Shown: one piece after another, positions 30,285 to 47,504 of the stretch
Layout of the letters: each line of letters starts with the position of its first letter
Position numbering within the stretch: position 1 is the first letter of the stretch
NCBI RefSeq assembly: GCF_000355805.1
Contig: NZ_CM001837.1
Location: 199,434-263,433 of the forward strand
From: Dokdonia sp. PRO95
GTDB taxonomy: Bacteria; Bacteroidota; Bacteroidia; Flavobacteriales; Flavobacteriaceae
Length of the DNA: 64,000 bases
Direction: 5' to 3'
Notes under the pieces: model-generated
Told to the model about the DNA's origin: nothing
Database searches by the model: none
The model's input: the letters and a program-made list of their open reading frames with translations, nothing else
Position numbers and translations under genes: made by a program

Positions 30285-30956
30285 TTATTTACCTCTTATA
30301 ACTTTTACTAAGTCGATAGCTAATGCTGTCTTTTCTTCTATTTTCTTATAATCCCATGCGCCATTATCATCTACTGCTATGAGTTTTGAGCCTAGGCCTA
30401 CACAGGTTACTCCTGCTTTAAACCATTCTTCTAAGCTTTCTTTGGTAGGAGAAACACCACCTGTAGGCATCACCGAAGTCCAAGGACATGGACCTTTAAT
30501 CGCTTTTACAAACTGGGCTCCATAAATACCTCCTGGAAAGAGTTTTACAATCTCACAGCCTAGCTCTTCGGCGCGAGCAATTTCTGTTAGCGATCCGCAG
30601 CCTGGTGACCATAGCACTTTTCTTCTATTACACACCATGGCGATATCTTCACGCAGTACGGGAGTCACTACAAAGTTTGCTCCTAGCTGCAGGTATAAAG
30701 AAGCTGCTGCTGCGTCTGTGACACTACCTACACCAAGTATTAACTCAGGTAATTCCGCTTTCGCGAAAGCGCACAACTCATCAAACACTTTATATGCATT
30801 ATCACCGCGGCTAGTAAACTCTATTACTCGAGCACCACCGTTATAACAAGCCTGTAATATATGCTTTCCTACCTCAACAGATTCATTATAAAACAAAGGA
30901 ACAATTCCCGTGTCTTTCATTACTTGTGCTACTTCTAATCTTGTAAATCTTGCCAT
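30285..30956 (-). CDS. eda: KDPG (2-keto-3-deoxy-6-phosphogluconate) aldolase
   Basis: Cleaves KDPG to pyruvate and glyceraldehyde-3-phosphate, the final step of the alginate route here. Class I aldolase of 223 residues: catalytic Glu in VIEFTSRGDN, GVGSVTDAAAA, FVVTPVL, the Schiff-base Lys in CEIVKLFPGG and MPTGGVSPT near the phosphate site. Last gene of the operon, 2 bases after kdgK. Palindrome copy 12 is translated as CAFAKAEL. Confidence 0.95.
   Translation of the reverse strand: MARFTRLEVAQVMKDTGIVPLFYNESVEVGKHILQACYNGGARVIEFTSRGDNAYKVFDELCAFAKAELPELILGVGSVTDAAAASLYLQLGANFVVTPVLREDIAMVCNRRKVLWSPGCGSLTEIARAEELGCEIVKLFPGGIYGAQFVKAIKGPCPWTSVMPTGGVSPTKESLEEWFKAGVTCVGLGSKLIAVDDNGAWDYKKIEEKTALAIDLVKVIRGK
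30756..30771. repeat. Iterated palindrome, copy 12 (inside eda)
   Basis: CGCTTTCGCGAAAGCG, coding for AFAKA. Confidence 0.9.
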
Positions 30957-30958
30957 AA

Positions 30959-31981
30959 TTATCTTGAAACTTTTCCTGATTGATCTCCATCCATAAACCG
31001 TTCTATATCTTGTAAAGAGACCAAGTTGTAATCACCATAAATGGTATGTTTTAAACAACAAGACGCTACAGCAATATCTACTGCACGCTGCTTGTTCATA
31101 GGGTCATCTATGAGACCAAAGGCTAGACCACCCATAAATGCATCTCCACTACCTACACGGTCTACCACGGGAGTTACTTCTTGTATGTGTGCTCTATACA
31201 CTTGCTCACCATCATATAATAATCCTCCTATGCGCTGGTGAGATGCACTCACAGAGTATCTTAATGTGGTCGCAACCTGCTTGAGGTTAGGGCATAGTTT
31301 AAAAAGCTTATCATACAAAACAGGAAGTGATTTTTCATCCTGATAGTTAGGACCTACTTTGTCCTCACCTAGCATAAAAAAAGCAGTGTCTATATCTCCT
31401 AATATTAAATTACTATAATTAAGAAGTTCTGGCATTACATCCTTAGGCTCCTTGCCCCATTTCCAAAGCTTTGAACGGTAATTCAAGTCTGTAGAGATGG
31501 TGAGCCCCATCTTACTAGCTACTTTTACAGCCTCTAGACACTCTAGCGCTGCTGCTTCTGATATTGCTGGGGTGATACCACTCCAGTGAAACCATGTAGC
31601 ACCTTCAAAAATAGCTTCCCAGTCAAAACATCCTTTTGTGATAGTAGCCATAGAGCTACCAGCACGGTCATATACCACGTTGCTAGCTCTTGTTCCGGCT
31701 CCTGTTTCTAGAAAGTAAATCCCTAGTCTATCTCCACCTCTTTTTATATACTTATCGCCTACTCCAATTTTTTTAATTTCTTGAAGTGCTGTATCGCCTA
31801 TTTCATTATTAGGAAGCCTAGTAACAAAGTCTGCAGAGACGCCTAGATTATTAAGTGAGACTGCTACATTAAATTCTCCTCCACCATAGGTTACCCCAAA
31901 GGTTTTGGCTTGAGAAAATCTCAAGAATCGCTCTGTAGAGAGCCGTAACATAATCTCACCAAAAGTGACTACTTTACTCAT
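30959..31981 (-). CDS. kdgK: 2-keto-3-deoxygluconate kinase
   Basis: PfkB/ribokinase-family kinase (340 residues) that phosphorylates KDG to KDPG. Motifs: FGEIMLRLS at the start, TYGGGEFNVAVSLNNLG (PfkB signature 1) and VDRVGSGDAFMGGLAFGL (signature 2, with the catalytic Asp in GSGDAF). Lying between the DEH reductase and eda fixes the substrate. A 21-base gap separates it from the SDR gene. Confidence 0.94.
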   Translation of the reverse strand: MSKVVTFGEIMLRLSTERFLRFSQAKTFGVTYGGGEFNVAVSLNNLGVSADFVTRLPNNEIGDTALQEIKKIGVGDKYIKRGGDRLGIYFLETGAGTRASNVVYDRAGSSMATITKGCFDWEAIFEGATWFHWSGITPAISEAAALECLEAVKVASKMGLTISTDLNYRSKLWKWGKEPKDVMPELLNYSNLILGDIDTAFFMLGEDKVGPNYQDEKSLPVLYDKLFKLCPNLKQVATTLRYSVSASHQRIGGLLYDGEQVYRAHIQEVTPVVDRVGSGDAFMGGLAFGLIDDPMNKQRAVDIAVASCCLKHTIYGDYNLVSLQDIERFMDGDQSGKVSR

Positions 31982-32002
31982 ATTCTAAGAATATATATTT
32001 TT

Positions 32003-32764
32003 TTAAATACCTAATGCTTGACCACCACCTACTTGAATTGTTTCGGCAGTTAAGAAGGCTGCATCTTTACTCGCAAGGAATGATACTACACCTGCTACAT
32101 CATCTGGCTGACCAAGACGACCTAACATGATATTATTTGCCCATGAAGCAAATACTTCTGGCTTAGTCTCCTTAATTTGCTTGTGGAAAGGTGTATCAAT
32201 AGTTCCTGGTGATACTGCATTCACACGGATACCATATTCTGCAAGATCCTTTGCTAGTGCTCTCGTGATTGTATGCACTCCAGCTTTTGAAGTACCATAA
32301 ATACCTGCTCCTGGTCCACCTGCATTCCACCCAGCGTTAGAAGTATAATTAATAATTGTAGGGTGATCTCCTTTTTTAAGGAATGGTATTGCTGCTCTAG
32401 AAGCAAAGAATACGGAGTCTAAGTTAAGCGCCATTACAAATCTGTAAAACTCTGTAGTCATCTCTTCAAATCTTGAACGACCACCTAGTCCACCAGCGTT
32501 GTTTACTAGCACATCAATCTTACCGTACTTCTCCCCTATTTTTTTAATGTTTTCTGTTACCGCTTCATCATTAGTTACGTCAAAGCCATAATACTCGGCA
32601 GTAATACCTTCTGCCTTAAGCTCCTCAAGTCTTTTTGCACCTTCTTCATCTTGAATTCCGTTTATTATAACGGTATATCCATCGTTACCTAATCGTTTTG
32701 CTACCGCAAATCCTATTCCTCCTGTGGCACCAGTTATAATAGCTACTTTTCCTTTATTACTCAT
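32003..32764 (-). CDS. SDR oxidoreductase, probable DEH (4-deoxy-L-erythro-5-hexoseulose uronate) reductase
   Basis: Short-chain dehydrogenase of 253 residues. Rossmann TGATGGIGFAVAKRLG, NNAGGLGG, a Ser in YTSNAGWN, catalytic YGTSKAG and RVNAVSPGTIDTPF. In alginate metabolism an SDR reduces DEH to KDG, and the gene order (kdgK and eda downstream, uptake gene upstream) fits. A KduD-like activity is the alternative. Cofactor preference cannot be settled from sequence alone. Confidence 0.85.
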   Translation of the reverse strand: MSNKGKVAIITGATGGIGFAVAKRLGNDGYTVIINGIQDEEGAKRLEELKAEGITAEYYGFDVTNDEAVTENIKKIGEKYGKIDVLVNNAGGLGGRSRFEEMTTEFYRFVMALNLDSVFFASRAAIPFLKKGDHPTIINYTSNAGWNAGGPGAGIYGTSKAGVHTITRALAKDLAEYGIRVNAVSPGTIDTPFHKQIKETKPEVFASWANNIMLGRLGQPDDVAGVVSFLASKDAAFLTAETIQVGGGQALGI

Positions 32765-32788
32765 AATATTACTTTTTACTTTTTATTA

Positions 32789-34090
32789 TTATCTATTTGA
32801 TTTAAGAAGTTCAATTTTTGGGATTAATATCCACACACTCGCAATTACAATAAATGCTAATGCCGCCCCTATTGCAAATGCTGGTGTATAATTACCACCT
32901 TCAGTTAATACTGGTACTAATGCTACGAGTCCTGCTCCTGTAAGTTTTGCTGCTGTTCCAGCAAAGCCTGATAGCGTACCTACTGTCTTTTTACCATACA
33001 AATCACTTGGTAATGTTTGTACATTTCCTATCGCCGTTTGGAACCCAAATAGCACTACTGCCATTATTAAAACAGCTGCTATAGGCGATCCTGGATTTGA
33101 TAAGGCAAGAAGCGCAGGTAACATAATGACACATCCTAGTGTTATTACCATCTTACGAGTCTTGTTAATATTCCATCCTGATTTTAATCTATTTTGTGCT
33201 AATAAACCACCAAACCAAGCTCCAAACATAGCTCCTACATAAGGAACCCAACCATAGATACCTATCGCTTTTACATCCATACCATACACTTCTGAAAGGT
33301 ATATAGGGATCCAAAAAACAAACAGCCACCATATAGGATCTATCGCTGCAGAGGCTATAATCACACCCCAACTTTGCTTTTTAGAAAGCAACTCTCCTAC
33401 CCCAGGGTTATACTCCGTAAGTTTTTCATCTTCCTCTGTTTCTTCTTTTATTTTTTGCCCCTTTAGAATATGTTGCTTTTCTAATTCTGTTAGCCACGGG
33501 TGACTTTTAGGCGGTGCTTTTACTAAAATTAACCAAGGAACTAACCATAACAATCCTATAAGACCTATGATTACAAATATCATTTGCCAGCTAAAATAAA
33601 CAGTCAAAAAAGCAATGGTTGGAATTGCAACGATACCACCTATAGCTGCGCCAGAATTAAACAATCCTTGTGCAAATGCTCTCTCTGTGGCTGGAAACCA
33701 CTCTGCATTTCCTTTGGCCGCTCCTGGCCAGTTTCCTGCTTCAGAAATCCCTAAGATTGATCTAAAGATTGAGAAACTCAATACTCCATTTGCTAGCGCA
33801 TGTAGCGCTGTAGCGATAGACCAAAACCCTATTGATAATACAAATCCAAACCTAGTCCCTACCTTATCGAAAATTTTACCAAAGATGGATTGTCCAAAAG
33901 CATATGAAAACATAAAAACCACCGATATTAAAGCGTAGATCTCCTTTCTTTCGGTAGTGGTCTTATCTGGATATAAATCTTCTGCTATACTAGGCCATAA
34001 AACAACGAGAGCTTGACGGTCTATATAATTAATAACAGTTGCCAGCGCTATAAGTCCTACAACCCACCATCTTAGTCCTTTAAGTTTCAT
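32789..34090 (-). CDS. MFS transporter of the hexuronate (ACS) type
   Basis: 433 residues, 12 membrane helices, anion:cation symporter-type features: NYIDRQALVVLWPSI in helix 1, GKIFDKVGTRFGF loop, GISEAGNWPGAAKGNAEWFP and FNSGAAIGGIVAIP. ACS members carry hexuronates; here DEH or unsaturated uronate formed in the periplasm is the likely cargo. It is the first gene of MFS-sdr-kdgK-eda (24-base gap to sdr). Confidence 0.87.
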   Translation of the reverse strand: MKLKGLRWWVVGLIALATVINYIDRQALVVLWPSIAEDLYPDKTTTERKEIYALISVVFMFSYAFGQSIFGKIFDKVGTRFGFVLSIGFWSIATALHALANGVLSFSIFRSILGISEAGNWPGAAKGNAEWFPATERAFAQGLFNSGAAIGGIVAIPTIAFLTVYFSWQMIFVIIGLIGLLWLVPWLILVKAPPKSHPWLTELEKQHILKGQKIKEETEEDEKLTEYNPGVGELLSKKQSWGVIIASAAIDPIWWLFVFWIPIYLSEVYGMDVKAIGIYGWVPYVGAMFGAWFGGLLAQNRLKSGWNINKTRKMVITLGCVIMLPALLALSNPGSPIAAVLIMAVVLFGFQTAIGNVQTLPSDLYGKKTVGTLSGFAGTAAKLTGAGLVALVPVLTEGGNYTPAFAIGAALAFIVIASVWILIPKIELLKSNR

Positions 34091-34221: not shown

Positions 34222-34926
34222 TTAAATATTATAGCAATATTGATACAAAGCTTTAAAGTGTTTTTTCATCATTGCTTTTGCTTCTTGAGGTTTTTGTTGC
34301 TCTATTGCGAGGTATATTTTCTCGTGCTCTTCTATAGCTGATTGTGACATTCCAGAGTCACAAACATGATACTTTTCAAAATTTGTGATTATTTCTGGAG
34401 TTATAATGAGCATGAAATTATTCATGGTACTATTACCTGATGCTTTTGCAATGGCTAGGTGAAAGAGTAAATCTTCTTGCACCGCATCTTTACCATTGAT
34501 TACTTTTTCTGTGTAAGCATCTAGCGCTTGTCGCATTTTTTTGAGATCACTATCTGTGCGTCTCAATGCAGCGAGTCTAGCAGTTTTAAGCTCTAAGAGA
34601 ATACGTGTTTCAACCAGTGATTTAAAATCTGGATCTTCTAGCTTAAGGATATCATCTATCATCCCATTAAGAGCAATGACCCCAATGTTTGCAACAAAAG
34701 TTCCACTTTGTGGTATAGACTTTAGAATTCCATAAAACTCTAATTTTTGAATAGCCTCTCTCACACTACTACGAGTCACTTCAAAACGCTCAGATAACAT
34801 ACGCTCTGAAGGTAGCTTATCACCTGGCTCCAAATTTTTGAGATTAATAATATCCCTAATTTGACCTATGATTGCCCTTCCCGCATCTTTATTTTCAATT
34901 GTCTTTGTACGTGTCTCCAGTTTCAT
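34222..34926 (-). CDS. GntR-family regulator, FadR subfamily (alginate/uronate repressor candidate)
   Basis: 234 residues: N-terminal winged helix (LEPGDKLPSERMLSERF, VTRSSVREAIQKLEFYGIL, SGTFV) and a C-terminal all-helical FCD ligand domain (about 85-230; Asp/His residues in DLLFHLAIAKASGN and the C-terminal helices fit the metal site). FadR-subfamily uronate regulators such as UxuR/ExuR bind TTGGTATACCAA-like sites. Five such sites occur upstream of susC and of the PL6 gene, so this protein probably represses both operons until a uronate intermediate binds. Confidence 0.9.
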   Translation of the reverse strand: MKLETRTKTIENKDAGRAIIGQIRDIINLKNLEPGDKLPSERMLSERFEVTRSSVREAIQKLEFYGILKSIPQSGTFVANIGVIALNGMIDDILKLEDPDFKSLVETRILLELKTARLAALRRTDSDLKKMRQALDAYTEKVINGKDAVQEDLLFHLAIAKASGNSTMNNFMLIITPEIITNFEKYHVCDSGMSQSAIEEHEKIYLAIEQQKPQEAKAMMKKHFKALYQYCYNI

Positions 34927-35158: not shown

Positions 35159-36487
35159 TTAATATCCTGGGTTTTGGGTGATTACTCCACCACTTGCTAA
35201 AATTTCAGAAATTGGAATAGGGAATAAAAAGTAATCACTATTAATCGCTTCTCCCATTTCTGCTTCTGCAGTTCCAGTTCTTACTAAATCAAACCATCTG
35301 TGCCCTTCAAAGGCTAATTCAAGTCGTCTTTCATCTTGTATAGATTGTCTTACTAATGCTTGCGTATTTATAATTACAGGGTCTAGCACTGGTAATCCAG
35401 CTCTTGTTCTGATATCATCAAGCTCTGCAAGAGAGACCGCTGGTGTAGCTCCGTTTTCATTTAATGTCTCGGCATATAATAATTGTACATCTGCAAGTCT
35501 TATCTCGATCCAATCATGATCAGGCCCTCCTGTTTGAGGATATTTTGGTGAAGAGAGAAGTGTTTCATCTATATTTACAGCTCTTCTCAAATCTGTATCA
35601 CCTCCTGCTTCACTAGCATCATATGCTGCAATTAAATCTGAATCTAATGGCATTAATGCTTTAGTATCTAAACCTCCATACCAAGACCAAAATTCTGAAA
35701 ATCCATACTCATCAGATATCGAGCTTGAAATTTGCGTAGCAAAAATAACTTCAGAATTCAAATCGTTATCTACTCCAAATATATCTGCATAATCAGCTTG
35801 CAATTGAATTCCAGCAGCTGCAGCTCCATTTACAACGGCTGCTAATTGTGTCTCAGCATTTCCAAAATCTCCTCTTGTCATGTAAACTTTACCCAATAAA
35901 CTTTGTGCTGCATATCTAGACGCTCGCCCTCCCACTATTTCCGTATCTAAAGCGGCAATAGCATCCATTAAGTCTGGAACTATGATATTGTTGTACACAT
36001 CTTCGAGTGGTTGCCTTACTAGTATTGAGGTATCAGTAGTACTAGGCGTAGGTGATAAATTTACTGGCACATCTCCAAAGACTCTTACTAATTTAAAATA
36101 AGATAGTGCTCTCAAAAACTTAGCTTCACCCACTTGAGTCTCATCTAGTGAATTATCGATTACGTTATTTGCACTTAAGATTGACTTATACATCGCTGTA
36201 TAAAATGGTCCAAAAAACTGATCTTCCATTACAGTTAATTCAGCATTATACCTGTCAAAAGCCGGGAAAGGCTCCTCATCCATTAATGCATTATCTGCTC
36301 TGAAATCTCCCATGACAGCCATAGGAGTTACAGACCCGTGCTGATAAAAGTATGCTGCATTAAGAACCCCATCAAAATTTGTTAAAGAGTCTGTACTAGC
36401 AATATTTGGCGGAACTTGATCTAAGTCACTATCACATGCTGTTATTAACAGCAGCGATCCTAATAAATATTTATATACTGTTTTCAT
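35159..36487 (-). CDS. susD: SusD/RagB-family glycan-binding lipoprotein
   Basis: Surface lipoprotein that caps the SusC channel and binds oligosaccharide, here presumably alginate oligomers. 442 residues, lipoprotein signal ending LLITAC. The N-terminal SusD fold has TPR helices (FLRALSYFKLVRVFGDVP is the classic motif) and the RagB/SusD C-terminal signature is QSIQDERRLELAFEGHRWFD. It follows susC by 11 bases. Slightly shorter than many SusD proteins. Confidence 0.93.
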   Translation of the reverse strand: MKTVYKYLLGSLLLITACDSDLDQVPPNIASTDSLTNFDGVLNAAYFYQHGSVTPMAVMGDFRADNALMDEEPFPAFDRYNAELTVMEDQFFGPFYTAMYKSILSANNVIDNSLDETQVGEAKFLRALSYFKLVRVFGDVPVNLSPTPSTTDTSILVRQPLEDVYNNIIVPDLMDAIAALDTEIVGGRASRYAAQSLLGKVYMTRGDFGNAETQLAAVVNGAAAAGIQLQADYADIFGVDNDLNSEVIFATQISSSISDEYGFSEFWSWYGGLDTKALMPLDSDLIAAYDASEAGGDTDLRRAVNIDETLLSSPKYPQTGGPDHDWIEIRLADVQLLYAETLNENGATPAVSLAELDDIRTRAGLPVLDPVIINTQALVRQSIQDERRLELAFEGHRWFDLVRTGTAEAEMGEAINSDYFLFPIPISEILASGGVITQNPGY

Positions 36488-36498
36488 TTTTTCCTTCT

Positions 36499-39400
36499 TT
36501 AAAAATTAACATTTAAACCTAGCGTAAAACTTCTCGCTATCGGGCTTGCTCCTACCTGTACTCCATAAGTAGTAGGTCCTAAATAACCTCCATTTGAAGT
36601 TTCAACACCTTCTGGATTGAAAGAAGTATAATCATCTCCCCATAAGTATAAAAGGTTTGTTGCTGCCGCATACACTCTTGCAGAACTTACACCTACTCTA
36701 CGTATAGTTTCTGAATCTATCGTATACCCAATTGTAAGATTTCTTAAGGCTACGTATGATGCATCTTGCACTTGTGCATCTAATTGATTTCTTGACTGTG
36801 TATAAAATTGTCCATTTGCATCAGCAATACCGTCACCATTTGCGTCAAAGCTATCTCTTAATCTTCCACCAAATTCAGAATTATAGTAAATAGGATCTAT
36901 ATTAAACACATCACCTCCTTGAGCTCCTTGGAATTGGAGTGACATATCAAATGCTTTGTAAGCAACTTGAGCATTAAAGCCCCAATAGAAATCTGGTGTA
37001 TTTTGTCCAATTTTCACTAAGTCTCCACCTTCTTCAACAGTTTTAGTCCGATCTATTATCCCATCACCATTTTGGTCTACTACATAATATTCAGAACTAT
37101 TAATATCTATAGCACGCGAAGGATCTTCAATATGGACATCTTCAACGCGTCCATTAGTTTCTAATCCCCACATTTCTCCAATCTCACCACCTACATAGTT
37201 TCTAAATACTGGACCCCTTCCACTTTGACCATAAATAGTTTGTGGTAATTCGTCTAGACCACCTAAGTCTGTGATTTCTGTGTTTACTGTAGAGAGGTTT
37301 GCACCTACATTTATAGTAAAGTCTTCCTTCCTAAGCACTGCTGCCGTAAGTTCTAATTCTAACCCAGAGCTTCTCACGTCTCCAGAGTTGAGTCTTATTG
37401 AAGTTGTTCCTAAAACTTCTGACACACTCTGATTAATTAAGATATTTTCAATATCCGATGTATAGTAATCTGCGCTTAATCTAATTCGGTTTTTAATAAA
37501 TCCTAAATCAATACCATAATTAGTTTCTGTATTAGTTTGCCATGTAAGGTCTTCATTTGCAACATCTGCAGGGATTAAAAACCCATTCCCTAAAACTGTT
37601 GCTTGAGGGTTAAGAAGACTTAATGAATTATAAGCTCCTAAATCTGAAGTTGTTCCTAAAGAACCTGTACTGAATCTCACCTTTAGTGAGCTCACAGCTT
37701 CAGAGTTATAAAATCCTTCATTATGAACATTCCATCCTACTGAAAGTGCTGGGAAAGTTTCGTACTTGTTATTTCCTCCAAATCTAGAATCACCATCTCT
37801 TCTAACGGATGCAGATAATAAATAACGATTATCAAACGCATAATTTACACGCCCAAAAACACTTCTTCTTACAATAGTTTCATCTCTCTCTGTAACTGCA
37901 ATATCTGCAGGATCTAAGAGATTGTAGTTAATTATATCTCCAAAAGGAACATTAGATCCTCTCAAAGCAACACCCTTAGTATACAGATTTTGAAATTCAA
38001 TACCAGCAACTGCCGAGATATCATGCTTACCTATCAATTTACTGTAATTTAAAGTTGTTTCACTAAGTGTAGAGATTCTCTTAACATCAGTTTTATCTAA
38101 AGCTGTTTGATTAGTTCGTCCTCTTGAATCAAATTCAAGACCTCTCCAGAAGTAATCTTCTGTATCTCTAATATCTGCCCCTAAGACTGTTTTAATATTT
38201 AAACCATCAAGAATACTATATTGAAAATAAGAAGTGACATTTGCAAAAAATGTTTTTTGATATCTGTCTGTATTGTTCAGTTTTGTTGCTGGACCAGCAT
38301 CTCCGGTTCCTCCTATACCATTGCCAGATCGCCCATAATGCCAGTCTTGTGCAGTATCACCTACCTCTAAAGTATAGATACTATTATTAAAAGGAGAATC
38401 ACCTCCTCTGTATCCAGAATCGAAACTAGCAAGTCCTAATCCTTGAGCTTGCTGATCAAGCTGTTGCACAAATGCGATTGAAGCTTCTGTGTGATTAATA
38501 GGATGAATACTATAAGCTCTCAATAAATCTCTCATATCATGACCTACAATATCTCTATCTGATGTAAATCCATTAAAACTTAAACCTGTTTTAAACTTAT
38601 CGCCAAGTTTTGCATCAACATTCATCCTTGCATTAAGTCGCTCAAAACCTTGAGTTCGAACAATACCTTCTGTTTTCTGATAACCTAATGAAGCAAAATA
38701 GTTTACATCTTCACTACCACCACTTACACTAAAATCATGACTTGTAGTATATCCATTTTGAAAGAGCCAGTCTTCAATACCAACTACATCTGGTGAGTTT
38801 TTATAAGCGTTTAAACGGTAATCCAACAATTCAGGATCTACTTCAGAAACGTCATAAGTTCCATTTGCTATTCCGTTTTCTAGTGTAGTCGCCCACTCTG
38901 CAGCAGTAGATTTAATATTATCTCTAAGATATCTGCTTGATGTACTTGCATACGTATTATAGCTAAACTTAGCCTTTCCTTCTTTTCCTTTTTTAGTAGT
39001 AACTAGAATTACCCCATTTGCTCCTCTAGAACCATAAATCGCAGCAGATGCTGCATCTTTAAGGACCTCTAAGCTTTCTATGTCATTGGGATTCACAGTT
39101 GCCAAACTTCCAGAAATAGGATAACCATCCACAACAATAAGCGGACTTGAATTACCATTAATAGAAGATGCTGCTCTTATTTGAATCTTTGGGTCTGCAC
39201 CAGGAGCACCGTCTTGGTTTTGAATTAAAACTCCAGATAATTTACCCGCTAGAGCCTCATCTACTCGACTTGCTTGAATTGCAGCTATATCACCACCTTC
39301 TACTTTTGCTACCGCACCAGTAATTGATGATTTCTTTTGAGTTCCGTATCCAATTACAACTACTTCATCAAGAGCATTCGAATCTGTAATTAAGGTAACA

Positions 39401-39678
39401 TTTGCAACAGCTTGACCTGTCACCGCAATCGTTTGAGTAGTAAAACCTACATAAGAGAATTGCAAAATATCTCCTGATGTTACAGAAATCTGGTAGTTAC
39501 CGTCAAAATCAGTTGAAGCGCCTGTTTGCGTGCCGCGAATCGCGACATTTACTCCAGGAATAGGAGCATTTCCTTCGTCAGATACAACAGTTCCCTTTAT
39601 AATGTAACTCTCCTGCCCAAAGAGCAAGACACCACACAAAAGAAAAAGGACTAAGGAAAACTTAGTTTTTACATTCAT
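36499..39678 (-). CDS. susC: SusC/RagA-family TonB-linked outer-membrane transporter
   Basis: 1059 residues. Signal peptide to GVLLFGQ, carboxypeptidase-D-regulatory-like domain (about 25-110: GTVVSDEGNAPIPGVNV), SusC signature LDEVVVIGYGTQKKS, plug domain (about 120-230: VDGYPISG, YGSRGANGVILVTTKKG) and a 22-strand barrel ending in a terminal Phe (FTLGLNVNF). It imports oligosaccharides with SusD, powered by TonB; the alginate genes around it point to oligo-alginate. Three operator-like sites lie 175-215 bases upstream, with several hairpins between them and the start codon. Confidence 0.95.
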   Translation of the reverse strand: MNVKTKFSLVLFLLCGVLLFGQESYIIKGTVVSDEGNAPIPGVNVAIRGTQTGASTDFDGNYQISVTSGDILQFSYVGFTTQTIAVTGQAVANVTLITDSNALDEVVVIGYGTQKKSSITGAVAKVEGGDIAAIQASRVDEALAGKLSGVLIQNQDGAPGADPKIQIRAASSINGNSSPLIVVDGYPISGSLATVNPNDIESLEVLKDAASAAIYGSRGANGVILVTTKKGKEGKAKFSYNTYASTSSRYLRDNIKSTAAEWATTLENGIANGTYDVSEVDPELLDYRLNAYKNSPDVVGIEDWLFQNGYTTSHDFSVSGGSEDVNYFASLGYQKTEGIVRTQGFERLNARMNVDAKLGDKFKTGLSFNGFTSDRDIVGHDMRDLLRAYSIHPINHTEASIAFVQQLDQQAQGLGLASFDSGYRGGDSPFNNSIYTLEVGDTAQDWHYGRSGNGIGGTGDAGPATKLNNTDRYQKTFFANVTSYFQYSILDGLNIKTVLGADIRDTEDYFWRGLEFDSRGRTNQTALDKTDVKRISTLSETTLNYSKLIGKHDISAVAGIEFQNLYTKGVALRGSNVPFGDIINYNLLDPADIAVTERDETIVRRSVFGRVNYAFDNRYLLSASVRRDGDSRFGGNNKYETFPALSVGWNVHNEGFYNSEAVSSLKVRFSTGSLGTTSDLGAYNSLSLLNPQATVLGNGFLIPADVANEDLTWQTNTETNYGIDLGFIKNRIRLSADYYTSDIENILINQSVSEVLGTTSIRLNSGDVRSSGLELELTAAVLRKEDFTINVGANLSTVNTEITDLGGLDELPQTIYGQSGRGPVFRNYVGGEIGEMWGLETNGRVEDVHIEDPSRAIDINSSEYYVVDQNGDGIIDRTKTVEEGGDLVKIGQNTPDFYWGFNAQVAYKAFDMSLQFQGAQGGDVFNIDPIYYNSEFGGRLRDSFDANGDGIADANGQFYTQSRNQLDAQVQDASYVALRNLTIGYTIDSETIRRVGVSSARVYAAATNLLYLWGDDYTSFNPEGVETSNGGYLGPTTYGVQVGASPIARSFTLGLNVNF

Positions 39679-39750
39679 AATTAATGATTTAGATTAAATT
39701 AATTTGTTTTATTAAATAATCCTCAGAAACCTATTAACTGCTCTCTATTC

Positions 39751-39849
39751 TGTATGCTATTTCATACATTTACAATAGATAAGCTTGCTGAGCTTATTTA
39801 TACTTCGTACCAGAAGTAATAATAAAGAGGACGGTGTCGAAGCTGTCCT
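39751..39849 (-). other. Four consecutive hairpins in the susC leader
   Basis: Inverted repeats TGTATG/CATACA (39751-39768), ATAAGCT/AGCTTAT (39779-39797), TACTTC/GAAGTA (39801-39818) and AGGAC/GTCCT (39828-39849). All lie between the operator array and the susC start, so they would be in the 5' leader if transcription begins near the operators. Confidence 0.5.
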
Positions 39850-39852
39850 TTT

Positions 39853-39893
39853 TTTGGTTTACCAAACTGGTCAACCAAATTGGTTTACCAAAT
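39853..39893. promoter_or_regulatory. Operator array upstream of susC (three sites)
   Basis: TGGTTTACCA, TGGTCAACCA and TGGTTTACCA, each an inverted repeat of TTGGT, with centres at 39859.5, 39872.5 and 39885.5, exactly 13 bp apart. They resemble UxuR/ExuR-type sites of the FadR subfamily. Confidence 0.82.
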
Positions 39894-39942
39894 ATGAGTA
39901 TAATATTCTGTTAATACAAAAATTATAGTGTTAAAATATTAA

Positions 39943-40290
39943 CTATTCCATAAAATCTTCTCTTATTGGCGAGAATACGTCAATTAACACCCCTGCCTCA
40001 GTACAAATTGCTCCATGTAATTCATGTGGTGGTATGTAAAAAGAATCACCTCCTTTTAATGTTTTTGTCTTACCGTTAATAGTCACATCAAAAGACCCAC
40101 TTTCTACATATGTTACTTGTGAGTGATAATGCTCATGCATAGGTCCTATTCCGCCCTTCTCAAAGTGTACTTTCACAAGCATGATTTTGTCATCATAGCC
40201 CATTATTTTACGTTTTACTCCTTCACCTACAACTTCCCACTCAATGTCGTTTCCTTCTATAAATTCTTTACTTGCTCCAAATGATTTCAT
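39943..40290 (-). CDS. kdgF: KdgF-like cupin, unsaturated uronate linearisation
   Basis: Single-domain cupin of 115 residues. The metal site is MHEHYHSQVTYVESG (His residues) with PPHELHG as the second motif. KdgF proteins convert 4,5-unsaturated monouronate from alginate or pectin to the linear keto form (DKI/DEH). No signal peptide, so cytosolic. Last gene of the PL6-lyase-PL17-kdgF operon, 4 bases after the PL17 gene; its product feeds the SDR in the next operon. Confidence 0.9.
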   Translation of the reverse strand: MKSFGASKEFIEGNDIEWEVVGEGVKRKIMGYDDKIMLVKVHFEKGGIGPMHEHYHSQVTYVESGSFDVTINGKTKTLKGGDSFYIPPHELHGAICTEAGVLIDVFSPIREDFME

Positions 40291-40294
40291 ATTC

Positions 40295-42592
40295 TTAGTT
40301 TTTAATTTGTTTTAATGTATAACTACCCTTCCAGGTGTATGTTTGATTTGATATAGTAATGGAGTGTTGCGCTTTCGCGAAAGCGTTATCTACTAACACC
40401 ACAAGTTGCTCCTCTCCAGATTGCATAGTGATTTTTATAGCCACATATCCTTCTGGTGCTTGTTCTTGAGTTATAGATGCCACAGATGCATATGCATCTT
40501 GCGCTTTTTCTGTAACCGCATTATATGTACCATGAGACTCTAGTACTTGAGCGTACACTGCATTTTTCACTCCCGTTTTACGATGTATAAACATAGGATC
40601 TCTACGTAGGTTAAACGATGGGTCATTTGCTCCTACACGTCCAAGAATAAAAGTATCCTTACTATCTGAAAGTGTGGTGACGCTATAAAACTTGTTGTTG
40701 TTAAGCCATGTAAACTGGCTACTGGCTTCCTTAGGAGTACCAGTAGCTTCCTTCCATATATGTTGATAGCCATTTCCAGTTCCTAGCGGTCGTAATTCTC
40801 CCGGTGCTTCTACATCAAAACCAGTATAAATCACCTGCCCATGATAGTAAAATGGCAAGTCTATTTGATGCGCTTGGTCACTCTTTATTAGGTTAATATC
40901 TATGATGTATGGCTTGCTACTACCTTCTGGTGTTAACATCATCATAGTACGTGTAATCTTCGTTCCAGGATACGCGTTATTTTCTGTAGCGCTTACTACT
41001 TGTAGGTTTTTATCATTTGTATCAAAAATGATAATCTCAGGATGATGCTTTGAGCTTTCCTTGAAACTACCTTTAAAATGTGATGTCTCATCAATCACTA
41101 CGGTATTATGAGCAATGGTCTGTTTTGCCCATGTCGTATTTTCTTTTAGATAACCGCCACCATTCTTTTGTTCGACATTTACAAAACGCGCTAGACCATA
41201 ATCTTGTAATATCTCCTCCCCATCCTCGTAAAGAGAATAAGAGAGTTTATCAAAATGCCCATGACTAAGCCCGTGACTCGCGTTCTTCATTACGAGGGCG
41301 GTAGTGCCAGACTCATGGTTTGCTCTTAAAATGGCAACACCACCTTGATTGCCTTTTGGACCGTCATGTAGTAAAACAGACTCCTTTGTGAATGGGATTG
41401 CTTTACCCGCCTCAATTGCCTGTGCTACTGCAAGACCGGTAATATCAAGCTCTACTTGTCCTTGCTGCTGCGCTACCGATAGTAAACGTGCATCTTGATT
41501 TCCATAGTAATAAGCAATATCCACTGCAGATACTAAGGAAGAAGTGTTGTAAGACATTCCTTTTTGACCATCATTAAGAGGGAAAAATTCACCATCTTCA
41601 TCGGTGAGGTTAAGTAATGCATCTACTGCTTTTATTAAAACTCCGCCGTTGTATTCAAATATTTTAAGGGTTGGTTTTTTGGTTTCTAACGCTTTCGCGA
41701 AAGCTAAAAAAGGATACATCGCATATCGCTGATAATACGGTCCTTCTGTATAATAGCCATCTGGTGAAAAAGGTTCGTCTAGATTTGCAAGAAAACCTGT
41801 TTTTTGACCTTCAGCCTTTATGAGGCCTCCATCATTATCCATCGCGGTTGCCGAAATACTATCGTTTTTAATGCCGTACAATGCTCGATCTACAAGCTCA
41901 TCATCATCCATCACTAAACCTATCATACCTACAGCAACAGTTCCCCAAGTGCTGTGATTATGTATACGGTTAAAAAATTGTGGTGTTTCTACAGACAGAA
42001 AATCTGCAAAAGGACGAAATAGCTCTGTATCAAGTGTCTCACGATCTTCTTCTGGTATCCAACTACGTATGGCGTCATAAGCTTGGCTCATATGCACTAG
42101 CCAGTTTGCATCATTGAGGCATTGCCAGAATATCTTCCCACGAGAATATGATCGCTCTTGTGGATGACGTGGTAATGAAGGATACATCTCTGCATATTTC
42201 ATTAATACATCTCTCGTATACTGTGCATATTTCTCTTCTCCCGTGAGCTGAAAAATCACTCCTGCCTTATGAAGTATGGTATAATTTAATTTATGCTGTG
42301 TGTGGGTATAACCTCCAGCCATATCTTTTGGGATAGGCACTTGTATCCCTTTTTCCATAGCTGCATCTACTTCTTGTTTTGCTACAGCTAGCGAATTATC
42401 AAACAACGGAACACTTCCCAACTTAGCTCTAATATCATCAACCACAGTTGCGGTAAGTACTACATTTGGGTTTGCACTACTCATAGTAGCAACCGATGTG
42501 TCTTTACTAGCTGCCTGCTCATCACAAGAAACCAGTAAGGTCGAAAGTGTGATACCAACTATAAGAGCCGTATTTCTGCTAATTAATTTCAT
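40295..42592 (-). CDS. PL17-family oligoalginate lyase, lipoprotein
   Basis: 765 residues, lipoprotein signal ending LLVSC. N-terminal alpha/alpha toroid of the alginate-lyase type (RHPQERSYSRGKIFWQCLND; Asn-His in FFNRIHNHSTWGT; catalytic Tyr region YTEGPYYQRYAMYPF) and a C-terminal heparinase II/III-like beta-sheet domain (KNASHGLSHGHFDKLSYSLY). PL17 enzymes are mostly exolytic and release unsaturated monouronate from alginate oligomers. Two palindrome copies (14 and 15) lie within it, both translated as AFAKA. Confidence 0.88.
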   Translation of the reverse strand: MKLISRNTALIVGITLSTLLVSCDEQAASKDTSVATMSSANPNVVLTATVVDDIRAKLGSVPLFDNSLAVAKQEVDAAMEKGIQVPIPKDMAGGYTHTQHKLNYTILHKAGVIFQLTGEEKYAQYTRDVLMKYAEMYPSLPRHPQERSYSRGKIFWQCLNDANWLVHMSQAYDAIRSWIPEEDRETLDTELFRPFADFLSVETPQFFNRIHNHSTWGTVAVGMIGLVMDDDELVDRALYGIKNDSISATAMDNDGGLIKAEGQKTGFLANLDEPFSPDGYYTEGPYYQRYAMYPFLAFAKALETKKPTLKIFEYNGGVLIKAVDALLNLTDEDGEFFPLNDGQKGMSYNTSSLVSAVDIAYYYGNQDARLLSVAQQQGQVELDITGLAVAQAIEAGKAIPFTKESVLLHDGPKGNQGGVAILRANHESGTTALVMKNASHGLSHGHFDKLSYSLYEDGEEILQDYGLARFVNVEQKNGGGYLKENTTWAKQTIAHNTVVIDETSHFKGSFKESSKHHPEIIIFDTNDKNLQVVSATENNAYPGTKITRTMMMLTPEGSSKPYIIDINLIKSDQAHQIDLPFYYHGQVIYTGFDVEAPGELRPLGTGNGYQHIWKEATGTPKEASSQFTWLNNNKFYSVTTLSDSKDTFILGRVGANDPSFNLRRDPMFIHRKTGVKNAVYAQVLESHGTYNAVTEKAQDAYASVASITQEQAPEGYVAIKITMQSGEEQLVVLVDNAFAKAQHSITISNQTYTWKGSYTLKQIKN
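40370..40385. repeat. Iterated palindrome, copy 14 (inside PL17 gene)
   Basis: CGCTTTCGCGAAAGCG, coding NAFAKAQ near the C-terminus. Confidence 0.9.
41691..41704. repeat. Iterated palindrome, copy 15 (inside PL17 gene)
   Basis: GCTTTCGCGAAAGC, coding LAFAKAL after the catalytic YYQRYAMYPF motif. Confidence 0.9.
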
Positions 42593-42598
42593 AAAATC

Positions 42599-44833
42599 TT
42601 ACTTAATTTTATATTCAAGCCTAGCTGCGGGAGCTAGCGGCTGAGATATGTTTTGTTTTCCTTGGGTAATCGTAATTGTGGTAGGCTTATCACTTAACAG
42701 TGTAATGTATAAACGGTCGTTTTCTACTTGCGTCATCACATCGGCCTCTTGTGAAAAATCAATAATCACATCACCTATTGTTAATTGTGAAGTAGCAAAT
42801 GATATGTTAGTATCATCCTTAGATAAGGTGATACTATTGTTTTGAGTATCGCTAGTAGTAATAATTGACCAATCGGCAAATTTGTTACCCATGCTATCTT
42901 CATGTATCCTCTTATCGTAAGTGTCAAATGGATAAAGCACCGTCACAAAACTGAAGTTATCTGCAGCTGCTTTTTGCACAACAGACCACTCTTTACCACG
43001 TTTACCGTCTGTAACTACAGTATCTACGGCTTGTAGTTGTAAAATATCTAAGCCGCTTCCATTATCAAAAGTAGCTCTAAGTAACGCTGGGCTATGCTCA
43101 CTACTATAATGACCCTGCCAGACTTGCTTGTAAGTATGTGGAGCCTCTGATTGAAAATTATCTTTAACAATCCAGAATTCATTCTCAACATTTATTACTT
43201 GTCTAGTATAGCTGACACCTACATTTTCAAATCCGTTGTGCGAGCCTACAAACACATCTGCTGTAGCATTTGCGCTCCACCCTAAGACCTTTGGCGTAGG
43301 AAGTTCTTTAAATTTCCCAAAACCGCTTCCTCCTTTATTTGAAGTGTATTGCTTGCCTTGCAGCTCGTCATCTACAAGCGCCACATTTTTTACCATACTA
43401 TTTTTAAATAGCTCAAGATCTTCTAGAGAGTAACGTACTTGGTAGTTAGGCAATACTACCATTCCATTTGCCATTGCTTGAATACCCAGCATATCTCCAT
43501 GCTGATGGTCAGGCTTATCTGCATCAAGTCCGGCAGCTATGACAAGCATATTATCTTGGTCATCCCAGCCTTCTCTCATGATATAGTATCCCGTATTTTC
43601 AAAAGCATAAGAGCCTACTTGAGGTGTGGTAGCTTTAATATCTTTTAAGGCACCTAGTTGTTCCTTACTTAAATTCCATAAATACTTAGGTTTTACCGTG
43701 CTCTTTGCAAAGTATCCCATCTCAGGATCATCAAATAAAAGATACCCCAAAGTAAGTGTTCCAGAAATATCGTTTTTCTCTGCCCAAGGTGCATCTGTAT
43801 CATCAGATAATACTGGCGCAGATGCGTCTGGAAATGCGATTTTAGTAAGTGTAGTAAAAAGAGATTTTAAACGTTCTTCCCAGATGGGGCTTACTTTCTT
43901 ATTACTTTTTTGAGCAAGTTGATAGATATAAAAGTAGTTGTCAATATCGCTTTGATGATAGTGAATGGTACGTTCAAACTGGAAACCATCCTCATTAATC
44001 TCGCGCTGCAAGTGCTTCTCGAGAATACTCATCGCTCTTTCATACCATAAATCTGCATCTTGAAAATCATTGAATATAATAGCAAGCATAGCCAGCGCAC
44101 TCAACCCTCTCGTTTGATGATTACCAGATTTAAACTCGGCATTATTCTCATATAGGTGTGAAGCGTGTTGTAATAAGGTGGCGATGGTGGTAAGCTGCTC
44201 CTCATCTGAATATGCTTTCTCTCCAAGAAATCCATTATGAATTTGTAGCCAATTGAGAACTCTGTAACCAGACCTAAAGGCTTCGTAAACTCCGTTTCCA
44301 TCGGGAATGGTTTCATATTCACCTGCGATTAAAGCGTCATTGAGTGACTGCAGCTGTCCTGTGAAGTAATCAATGTATTGTGCATCTTTATCCTTGTAGC
44401 GATAAAGAAAGGAAATATCCACCATTTTATGCTGTCTCGCTAGGTGCCTGAGACCGTATGCATTGATAGGAGTATCATTTTTATAATTAAAAGGTAACTT
44501 CCAGTGCGTACTGGCATCAAATTTATCTAAGTGATCTTGAGCACGAGCAGTATGAGAAACTTCCATCGCAGGATACAAGGATTTATACTCCTCAAAACGA
44601 GTATCATTCTCTGTCCAGTCGTAAAAGTAACGTTCTTGAAAAACAGTTCTAAAATGAGCAGCAAGCTTCTCTACTGTGTCATCACCAAGCTCATCTTTCA
44701 CCTCTTTTTTTAGATAAACAGCAAGGTCTTCTACAGCTACCACCTTATCTGATGGTAATTTCTGAGAACAAAGCGTAAGTGAAAATAAACAAAAACACCA
44801 CTTCAATAAAGGGAACTGTTGTGGCTTATACAT
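42599..44833 (-). CDS. Heparinase II/III-superfamily polysaccharide lyase (putative alginate lyase)
   Basis: 744-residue exported protein (signal MYKPQQFPLLKWCFCLFSL, possibly lipidated at a Cys near residue 14-22). Toroid domain features: HWKLPFNYKNDTPINAYGL, EAFRSGYRVLNWLQIH, NHQTRGLSALAML, and EDGFQFERTIHYHQSDIDNY as in heparinase N-terminal domains. The C-terminal beta domain has LDADKPDHQHGDMLGIQAMA and YEIMREGWDDQ-like strands. The exact PL family is not clear: it is not an obvious PL17, and heparinase-fold alginate lyases exist elsewhere. The start overlaps the PL6 stop by one base and the gene precedes PL17 by 6 bases. Confidence 0.75.
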   Translation of the reverse strand: MYKPQQFPLLKWCFCLFSLTLCSQKLPSDKVVAVEDLAVYLKKEVKDELGDDTVEKLAAHFRTVFQERYFYDWTENDTRFEEYKSLYPAMEVSHTARAQDHLDKFDASTHWKLPFNYKNDTPINAYGLRHLARQHKMVDISFLYRYKDKDAQYIDYFTGQLQSLNDALIAGEYETIPDGNGVYEAFRSGYRVLNWLQIHNGFLGEKAYSDEEQLTTIATLLQHASHLYENNAEFKSGNHQTRGLSALAMLAIIFNDFQDADLWYERAMSILEKHLQREINEDGFQFERTIHYHQSDIDNYFYIYQLAQKSNKKVSPIWEERLKSLFTTLTKIAFPDASAPVLSDDTDAPWAEKNDISGTLTLGYLLFDDPEMGYFAKSTVKPKYLWNLSKEQLGALKDIKATTPQVGSYAFENTGYYIMREGWDDQDNMLVIAAGLDADKPDHQHGDMLGIQAMANGMVVLPNYQVRYSLEDLELFKNSMVKNVALVDDELQGKQYTSNKGGSGFGKFKELPTPKVLGWSANATADVFVGSHNGFENVGVSYTRQVINVENEFWIVKDNFQSEAPHTYKQVWQGHYSSEHSPALLRATFDNGSGLDILQLQAVDTVVTDGKRGKEWSVVQKAAADNFSFVTVLYPFDTYDKRIHEDSMGNKFADWSIITTSDTQNNSITLSKDDTNISFATSQLTIGDVIIDFSQEADVMTQVENDRLYITLLSDKPTTITITQGKQNISQPLAPAARLEYKIK

Positions 44834-47133
44834 TAGTAAACCAGTTTAAGTTTCAGATTTTGAACTACTTTTATTTCACCAGAGTTAGACACTGTATTGT
44901 CTACTGGCTCTTGACCTTTTTCTCCCCAAAGAACCGCGACATACTTCACACGATTATTTGTAAATGTGTTATTTGCTAGGGTAACATTTACAATACCTCT
45001 TGTTTGTAGTAAGATATTAGCGCTATCACTAGCACCACATTTTGTAAACGTATTTCCCGTAACTACAAGGCTTCCACCTATGGTAGACTCATCATAACCA
45101 CCTCGATAGTAATCTAACACATCACTGGCTACATTTTCAAACTGAGAATCTTCTATAAATACAAAAGCTGCATTATAATCACCTTTATCATTTACCTCTT
45201 TATTAAGTTGGATACCACTTTGTGTGTTTTTAATCACACTATTTTTAATCATGATGGTATCTGCAAAAGATGCTTTACTCGTTTCTAGCACACTTTTGAA
45301 TCCATTTATTTCTACATTATCAAGCCATAATTCATAAGACTGCCCCATGTTTTTGTCAAGCGTTGCAAAAGCATCTGTGGTTGACGTTCCTTTAAGTGAA
45401 ATGTTTTTGAGTTTGAGTTTTGCTCTTGGTTGTAGCTCAAAACCTTTGGCAGTATTACTAAATGTAAGTACCGGTTTTTCTGAAGATGCAGATTGAAGAG
45501 TTACCGCTTTCGCGAAAGCGTACTTTTCATTAATCTCATAATTACCAGCACTAAGCTCGATAGTATCTCCATCATTACTTGTCGCAACAGCCTCTGTAAG
45601 CTCTGCTGTAGTTGACACTTTTACCGTTTTTCCTGCTTGTTTTTCTGGATGTGGGTTGAACCATGAGGTCCCGTAATTAGTTACGTCAAGCAAGGCCGAT
45701 GCACCTGTAGTGGCTCCTGAGATGGCACCTACACTATTGCCCGACGCCCTTTTGTTTCCAAAAATATCTTCATTAATCTTATCAAAACCAAAGCCGTTGT
45801 ACATCTCTGTCTCCAGTGATTCTGGCGACTGAAAGATTTCTGTAGGTGATGATAATGTCACTTCTTTGGTTAACAAACCATCTGTTTGATAAGCACTTTT
45901 ATTTTCTACGTTAAGAATGTTATTTTTAAAAGTAACCCCAGTGATGCTATCGTAATTTTTGATGATTTCTGTAGTTTCAATATCTCCGTACACTAAGTTA
46001 TTTGCAACAATCATACGTTCTGCGCGGGCAGAGCGTATTTCTGAAGCCGGAAGGACTTCTGCCTGACTTAGGTTTGCTCCTACTCCAAAATGCCAAGGCG
46101 TCTTTGTGTTTATAAATGAATTGTGAGCGACTACCACATCTGTAACCTGATTATAACGATTGAGTGGTGACTTAGGAATACCATTCATTACTGCCAGAGG
46201 AGCACGAAATTCATTTCCTTTTAAGTTATAGAAGTAATTATTTACAATAAAATGACCCGTATTAATTACTCGTATCCCTCCTATAAACTCAGATGCATCA
46301 TTACCTATAAATACATTACCATCTATGGTCGCATAATTACCGTGACGAAGCACTAGCGAACCTTCTGACTCAAAAAAGACATTATTTTTAAAGGTATTAT
46401 AATTAGACTTACTTGAGATAATCTCTACTTCTCCATTACACTTTTCAAAATAATTGTGTTCTACATTTACATAACCCGGTGTCATAGACGTATAGCTGTC
46501 TCCTAGCTGCATAGTCTCTGCACGAGGCCCACCTTTTCTAGGACGTGGTCCGAAATGGTTATCCTTAATCTGGTGATAGGTATTTACATTTTCATTACCC
46601 TTTAAAAACACGCGAAGCGTAGGCCCTTGGTTTGTTTTACCAGTAATATAATTATGATCAAAAGTATTATGTTGCCCCCATAATTCTATCCAGTGGTTTT
46701 TACTATCACGATCTGGATTTGTAAAATCTTCTATCACACAATCTGTTACACGCGAGTGATATGCTATCCTCTCATCATCTATTTTAAAACGTATAATGGC
46801 ATTTTCTGTGGTATAACCATTTTTAAAATAAAGTCCTTCTACTACAAGGTGCTTCCCTCCTAGTTTAAGTGAAGAGTTGCCTTCTAAAATAACTTTTCCA
46901 GCATTTTCTGCCTTAAGAGTAATAGGATTTGCCTCCGTTCCTTCTCCGTAAAATTTTATAGCTAAATCTTTCCACACGCCATCTTTAAGACTGATTACAT
47001 CTCCTGGCTTTGCATCTTTAATTGCTTCTTTTAATTCCTCTGGGGTAGTGACTGTCTGTGACACTAAAGTAATAGGCTCCTTGCATGATGCAAAGATGAT
47101 AAGGCTACAAAAGAGAAGAAGATATCGAGTCAT
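44833..47133 (-). CDS. PL6-family alginate lyase, two-domain lipoprotein
   Basis: 766 residues starting MTRYLLLFCSLIIFASC (lipoprotein). The frame is open further upstream, but that part translates the palindrome (LLSRKRT) and precedes the signal. N-terminal PL6 parallel beta-helix, chondroitinase B-like: NHWIELWGQHNTFDHNYI, RKGGPRAETMQLGDS (Glu and Arg, Ca-binding region), catalytic Lys in ISSKSNYN and catalytic Arg in GSLVLRHGNY. A second beta-helix (about residues 520-766) follows, as in AlyGC-type PL6. First gene of the lyase operon, with operators 139-166 bases upstream. Palindrome copy 16 encodes YAFAKAV in the linker to domain 2. Confidence 0.9.
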   Translation of the reverse strand: MTRYLLLFCSLIIFASCKEPITLVSQTVTTPEELKEAIKDAKPGDVISLKDGVWKDLAIKFYGEGTEANPITLKAENAGKVILEGNSSLKLGGKHLVVEGLYFKNGYTTENAIIRFKIDDERIAYHSRVTDCVIEDFTNPDRDSKNHWIELWGQHNTFDHNYITGKTNQGPTLRVFLKGNENVNTYHQIKDNHFGPRPRKGGPRAETMQLGDSYTSMTPGYVNVEHNYFEKCNGEVEIISSKSNYNTFKNNVFFESEGSLVLRHGNYATIDGNVFIGNDASEFIGGIRVINTGHFIVNNYFYNLKGNEFRAPLAVMNGIPKSPLNRYNQVTDVVVAHNSFINTKTPWHFGVGANLSQAEVLPASEIRSARAERMIVANNLVYGDIETTEIIKNYDSITGVTFKNNILNVENKSAYQTDGLLTKEVTLSSPTEIFQSPESLETEMYNGFGFDKINEDIFGNKRASGNSVGAISGATTGASALLDVTNYGTSWFNPHPEKQAGKTVKVSTTAELTEAVATSNDGDTIELSAGNYEINEKYAFAKAVTLQSASSEKPVLTFSNTAKGFELQPRAKLKLKNISLKGTSTTDAFATLDKNMGQSYELWLDNVEINGFKSVLETSKASFADTIMIKNSVIKNTQSGIQLNKEVNDKGDYNAAFVFIEDSQFENVASDVLDYYRGGYDESTIGGSLVVTGNTFTKCGASDSANILLQTRGIVNVTLANNTFTNNRVKYVAVLWGEKGQEPVDNTVSNSGEIKVVQNLKLKLVY
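45505..45520. repeat. Iterated palindrome, copy 16 (inside PL6 gene)
   Basis: CGCTTTCGCGAAAGCG, coding AFAKA at the start of the second beta-helix. Confidence 0.9.
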
Positions 47134-47156
47134 AAATATGTTGTGAGTACTAAGAG

Positions 47157-47174
47157 TACGCTTTCGCGAAAGCA
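47157..47174. repeat. Iterated palindrome, copy 17 (5' of PL6 gene)
   Basis: TACGCTTTCGCGAAAGCA, 24 bases upstream of the PL6 start, probably in its leader. Confidence 0.88.
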
Positions 47175-47271
47175 AAAAAAGCAATACACTTACGTTATAA
47201 TTGTCTAAAATCAATCACTCGCCACATTGCTATTTAAGAGTGTAATAATTTTAAAATTGAGCTTTAAACAA

Positions 47272-47299
47272 ATTGGTTATCCAAACTGGTTGACCAATT
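47272..47299. promoter_or_regulatory. Operator array upstream of the PL6 operon (two sites)
   Basis: TGGTTATCCA and TGGTTGACCA, centres 47278.5 and 47291.5, again 13 bp apart. Same motif as the array upstream of susC, 139-166 bases before the PL6 start. The rest of 47134-47504 is AT-rich spacer with palindrome copy 17 and no gene seen. Confidence 0.78.
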
Positions 47300-47504
47300 T
47301 ACAATCTCAAATATATAGATAATTACGATACTCACAATTATTTACACAATTATTTATTGAATTCCCACAAAAATGAAGACAAACTGAGCGAATATTAAAT
47401 CACTGTTGTCGTTGTGACTCTCAGCATATAAGCTAGATTTCATATTTACCTGTACTACTACACGAAGATTATCTAATTGCTTAGTTAAAAAGAATATGAT
47501 GTGG

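Follow-up and report, generated by a model that had tools for sequence, protein, structure and literature searches.

For AusR of Zobellia galactanivorans, the primary paper is reportedly that of Dudek et al. 2020 (NAR 48:7786). In the available excerpts of three publications, AusR is described as a regulator of the GntR family that represses most of the alginate genes (PMC8286568) and whose operators occur singly, doubly or triply in the promoters it binds (PMC7874173), and two neighbouring copies of the regulator are described in Zobellia (PMC8073546). Repeated operators are also known for NanR of E. coli, for which FadR-type dimers pack on (GGTATA)3 and the spacing matters for cooperativity (PMC8012715). 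A survey of GntR-family sites, carried out without Bacteroidota regulators of the FadR subfamily, has given TKGT/ACMA as the consensus of this subfamily, the centre being 2 nt long in some groups, and has located extra half-sites at a distance of 7-12 nt from the sites of the family (PMC4494728).

The window, that is, the whole stretch of 64,000 nucleotides of Dokdonia sp. PRO95 that was analysed, contains on its minus strand a complete alginate locus running from the PL6 lyase (47148) down to the KDPG aldolase (30285). The features considered are the following:

47305..47340 (approximate), minus strand: putative promoter of the PL6 operon, TTG-N19-TATATTTG (sequence)
47273..47297, minus strand: array B, two operator units at a 13-bp step, upstream of the PL6 operon (sequence; profile E 2e-5)
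39943..47148, minus strand: PL6 (Chondroitinas_B), heparinase II/III-type lyase, PL17-type alginate lyase and KdgF-like cupin, the operon behind array B (Pfam)
39854..39891, minus strand: array A, three operator units at a 13-bp step, upstream of susC (sequence; profile E 5e-8)
39679..39853, minus strand: susC leader between array A and susC, with two conserved hairpins at 39801-39852 (folding, covariance model)
36499..39678, minus strand: susC-like TonB-dependent transporter that heads the operon behind array A (sequence, without a Pfam run)
35159..36487, minus strand: susD-like binding protein (sequence, without a Pfam run)
34222..34926, minus strand: AusR-type regulator of the GntR/FadR subfamily (FCD), predicted binder of arrays A and B (Pfam GntR and FCD)
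30285..34090, minus strand: MFS transporter, SDR (DEH reductase-like), PfkB kinase (KdgK-like) and KDPG aldolase (KdgA/Eda-like) (Pfam)

A Pfam search of the genome for PL7 alginate lyases was without match, and the control genomes were likewise without any match, so that this result is no evidence of absence. A gene for an HTCS (Reg_prop, HisKA, HATPase, response regulator and AraC HTH) is found at 17081-21229 on the minus strand, next to a GH3 gene and a sugar transporter, and this region is probably a separate glycan locus within the window.

The original prediction, made from the sequence of the window, had described two arrays of three and two sites with centres exactly 13 bp apart, and this was read directly in the sequence. 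Array A is TTGGTTTACCAA.A.CTGGTCAACCAA.A.TTGGTTTACCAA, with unit starts at 39854, 39867 and 39880, and it reads actcatatTTGGTAAACCAATTTGGTTGACCAGTTTGGTAAACCAAA on the minus strand, with its promoter side toward susC; array B is TTGGTTATCCAA.A.CTGGTTGACCAA, with unit starts at 47273 and 47286. The motif said to be shared by the five sites is recognisable in all of them, with an exact match to TTGGTnnACCAA in two units and one mismatch in each of the remaining three. A step of 13 bp corresponds to 1.24 turns of the helix, or about 86 degrees, and neighbouring sites are located on different faces, as predicted.

Genome-wide scans, consisting of pattern and profile searches, revealed that specificity resides in the tandem and that the single site is at chance level. 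Single sites with up to 2 mismatches were not enriched in the window (31 versus 34 +/- 5.5 in shuffles), and exact TTGGTNNACCAA 12-mers numbered 5 in the whole genome, compared to 6 for the reversed control pattern. Three isolated exact copies, all inside coding genes (the GH3 gene at window position 14802, a dnaE-like gene and a thiH-like gene), were rejected as regulon members. The 13-bp tandem with at most one mismatch was found at arrays A and B only in the 3.3-Mb genome, and in a search with a 38-nt profile derived from relatives these two arrays were followed by a next match at E 0.07; neither the tandem pattern nor the profile located a third array elsewhere in the genome. The motif, when taken as a tandem, is therefore not widespread near unrelated genes, though isolated 12-mers turn up at other places by chance. 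The predicted alginate regulon of this genome consists of two promoters.

The regulator encoded at 34222-34926 matches the Pfam GntR and FCD domains, with the GntR match beginning at residue 18, and it combines the winged-helix GntR domain, the FCD domain and the TKGT/ACMA operator profile of the FadR subfamily. Its closest named relatives are from Dokdonia (99% in a Dokdonia MAG). An AlphaFold model of the monomer (mean pLDDT 83.6, with low confidence at residues 1-12) matches GntR/FadR structures. Residues R42, R52 and R56, as well as D152, H156, H201 and H223, are invariant across 27 orthologues. The three arginines, placed in the winged-helix domain, correspond to those with which FadR recognises TGGT, and the other four residues make up the FCD arrangement known for metal-mediated binding of carboxylate ligands.

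As far as the available excerpts on AusR go, the system of the window fits its description in every tested point and is a known kind of system. In both cases a GntR-family regulator (GntR plus FCD in the window) is encoded in a flavobacterial alginate locus, and alginate promoters carry multi-copy operators, which in the window are one triple and one double array. Repression by AusR is relieved by alginate breakdown products according to those excerpts, and release by such products is a proposal for the window. The alginate regulon of the original prediction stands in that one operator is common to the lyase operon and the uptake operon and arrays are found only in the alginate locus, but its logic is not new, being that of AusR in the excerpts of PMC7874173. 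What may be new relative to published AusR is the fixed 13-bp step, the fusion with the promoter and a sister group with steps of 15 or 16 bp, all considered below.

NanR is similar to the regulator of the window in belonging to the FadR subfamily and in having a repeated operator, on which it acts cooperatively with release by a sugar acid; unlike it, NanR uses repeats of single hexamers, not palindromes, and needs a 32-residue N-terminal extension (PMC8012715). Such an extension (about 32 residues) was looked for in the GntR of the window and found to be absent, to judge by the position of the GntR domain, the orthologues and the model, so that the contact surface between dimers would have to be a different one; a NanR-like cooperative action through another contact is possible. 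The arrays share the TTGGTNNACCAA half-site with UxuR/ExuR of gammaproteobacteria and the 2-nt centre with UxuR, whereas ExuR sites have a 3-nt centre (PMC4494728). Tandem arrays are the rule here, unlike in those systems, and the likeness lies in the half-site alone, so the designation of the sites as UxuR/ExuR-like is kept for the half-site and implies no orthology of the regulators. The extra half-sites of the survey are also recognition boxes beside a palindrome at about the same distance, but here the neighbours are whole palindromes, a second and a third one, always at the same step.

The distribution of arrays and regulator was analysed in 397 genomes of the family to which the window belongs, an array being defined as a pair of exact TGGTNNACCA sites no further apart than the gap allowed. 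This pattern was present in 111 genomes, with the reversed control pattern almost missing, and an orthologue of the GntR (E <1e-20) in 103. Both were found in 98 genomes, the array alone in 13, the regulator alone in 5 and neither in 281, that is, the regulator occurs in 98 of 111 genomes with arrays versus 5 of 286 without them (Fisher p 2e-71, phylogeny ignored), and array and orthologue sit in the same locus. This co-occurrence supports the GntR as the partner of the arrays, as had been proposed. At least one of the five genomes with the regulator alone (G207, L079) does contain arrays, which were overlooked by the strict pattern.

Sixty loci (0.99 Mb) were fetched, most of them picked for the array or the regulator, so that their count describes a spacing rule and not the frequency of arrays. 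Pairs of exact sites separated by up to 60 bp were found in them at 13 bp (97) and 26 bp (11) and at no other distance, and seven control dyads gave no pairs in the same loci. A set of 80 named loci, including partly the same species, gave pairs at 13 (98), 26 (22) and 39 bp (1); Zobellia is absent from this set. In a sample of the phylum, 13-bp pairs were found in the family of the window only. The 118 arrays counted comprised 76 double and 42 triple ones, and arrays preceding susC were triple in 32 of 47 cases, while those preceding lyases were double in 26 of 28 (p 1.6e-7). In several triple susC arrays (L079, L091, L093, L095, L096, L104 and L110) the middle unit is canonical and the outer units are often TTGGAAAACCAA or TTGGTTTTCCAA.

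In the relatives, operator and promoter are fused. The flavobacterial sigma A -7 box is TAnnTTTG (PMC9723704), and of 116 arrays oriented by their downstream gene 98 have a perfect copy at offset 0 (any other offset, at most 2 each), its TTTG consisting of a T and the first unit's own TTG. Among 83 clear cases, 69 have the box toward the gene and one has it on the opposite side, and 50 of the 98 fused arrays have a TTG at one fixed position, 27 bp upstream of the operator start, as expected for a -33 element. The family consensus is near TACATATATTTGGTAAACCAA(A/T)(C/T)TGGTNAACCAATTT. The arrays of the window are not the cleanest examples of this organization. In array A the -7 box is CATATTTG, fused to the first unit with one mismatch to TAnnTTTG. 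Array B is unfused and has a perfect TATATTTG with its TTTG 13 bp upstream of the first recognisable unit, a register also present in one other locus (L080), as though a first unit fused to the promoter had been lost by decay. Palindromes in twos or threes at a 13-bp step, fused to TAnnTTTG, provide a simple and highly specific signature for AusR-controlled genes in flavobacteria.

The gntR gene of the window has no array upstream, so its autoregulation would be absent or indirect. The gntR promoters of several relatives (L099, L102, L107, L108, L131 and L133) have an array with a degraded first half-site, e.g. TTAACAAACCAATCTGGTTAACCAA, which suggests a weaker autoregulation.

The same class contains a second family (f5) that has an alginate locus of this type (L230-L233, L302-L340), with susC, PL6 and a GntR of about 50% identity, the regulator being present in 63 of 199 genomes. 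Its site pairs are separated by 15 bp (41) or 16 bp (20), and by 13 bp twice among those listed; the regulator gene is mostly within about 150 bases of the array, and many of the arrays are likewise fused to TAnnTTTG. A tree of 85 regulators, each labelled with the spacing of the nearest array, grouped 48 of the 49 13-bp regulators in one clade (support 100/100), the lone outsider being a distant paralogue (36% identity) that shares its locus with a true orthologue. This clade spans the family of the window, including a genus (g2) with two neighbouring copies, and it also includes three regulators from f5 genomes (G872, G885 and G930). In G872, a 75% identical regulator of the 13-bp clade is accompanied by a 13-bp array (L329, contig C289), which is either a transfer or a misbinned contig, this assembly having 310 contigs and 3% contamination. 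G885 appears to hold both types of regulator, with a 13-bp array on one contig (L331, C35) and a 15-bp array on another (L332, C8). Contamination possibly explains some 13-bp-clade regulators in f5 assemblies, and the coupling of regulator and spacing holds regardless. By sequence comparison, the spacing goes with the clade of the regulator and not with the host. Among the residues by which the 13-bp clade differs from the other regulators are 2, 16, 30, 45, 87, 89, 158, 167, 169, 171, 224, 230 and 231.

Arrays A and B very probably serve as operators for the AusR-type GntR/FadR repressor encoded in the locus itself, which is predicted to act by covering the promoters. The sites, their spacing, the promoter fusion in relatives, the co-occurrence and the clade tracking were observed; binding, repression, inducer and, from the spacing alone, cooperativity are what we infer. 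When alginate is absent, repressor dimers would be placed side by side on the operator units, which in array A overlap the -7 box, whose end lies in the first TTGG, and in array B are located just downstream of the -7 box, and an occupied array would block either the binding of RNA polymerase or the start of transcription. An intracellular uronate from alginate breakdown (candidates are DEH, KDG and KDPG) would bind the FCD domain and release the repressor, and lyases, uptake and catabolism would then be switched on together. The 13-bp step would be fixed by contacts between adjoining dimers or by their shared flanks, and the spacing would consequently be a property of the regulator clade.

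In a rival reading the step is without protein-protein meaning. Operators of 12 bp with shared A/T flanks would be packed most closely at 13 bp and could be maintained there by tandem duplication of 13 bp; the units are indeed 13-bp direct repeats, and an 18-bp site of the UxuR type that overlaps its neighbour by 5 bp also gives 13. Nevertheless, the sister regulators have the same half-sites at a step of 15 or 16 bp, the 13-bp arrays within f5 accompany regulators of the 13-bp clade, and duplication alone would permit intermediate or larger spacings, none of which was found in 1 Mb, so this explanation is considered doubtful. It seems to us an even call that the step is heritable with the repressor, one clade having 13 bp and the sister group 15-16 bp at loci of one type, that arrays and regulators have passed jointly from one bacterial family to another, and the leader RNA behind the susC array perhaps adding a second, post-initiation layer of control. 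If this is true, the interface between DNA-bound dimers has changed, the base contacts have not, and the DNA has followed. The switch between 13 and 15/16 bp, which goes with the regulator even inside one genome that seems to carry both types (G885), offers a natural experiment on the evolution of cooperative repressor arrays.

Promoter fusion in the relatives makes a repressor placed over the core promoter the best mechanism. The distance of 7.4 kb between both arrays makes a loop conceivable, but activation by the GntR, or an action of the arrays through DNA bending or looping instead of promoter covering, is quite improbable, given that in most relatives the -7 box ends inside the array and the start site is covered by it, which is the position of a repressor, and that AusR is reported as a repressor in the excerpts available. 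Binding of the arrays by a different regulator of the genome, in place of the adjacent GntR, is still harder to credit: co-occurrence is not binding and the window does contain an HTCS gene (17081-21229), yet array and this GntR are together in 98 genomes and in f5 usually within about 150 bases, the operator has the TKGT/ACMA consensus of the FadR subfamily (PMC4494728), and the HTCS gene adjoins a GH3 gene 13 kb off the alginate genes.

The susC leader behind array A contains two hairpins that are conserved across many flavobacterial genera. The first one (AAAAGGAYAGG..CCTATCCTTTT) has terminator-like A/T-run flanks and a few double-sided pair changes, and the second has an ACTTC/GAAGT stem with a loop that is often GGAGG. 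The covariation in the leader is slight, and the A/T flanks would make a bidirectional terminator a sufficient explanation; a function of the leader as susC attenuator is a possibility. A search of the leader against Rfam gave nothing at the gathering threshold, with weak matches at chance level only. A long-range third helix, seen in single folds, was not recovered by alignment folding and is not claimed. In 24 of 46 sources the covariance model matched each locus once, on the coding strand, and gave weaker, overlapping echoes on the opposite one; in the whole genome it matched a single copy, located at the susC leader. Three whole leaders folded singly were more stable than all of their shuffles (z -3.1 to -4.7).
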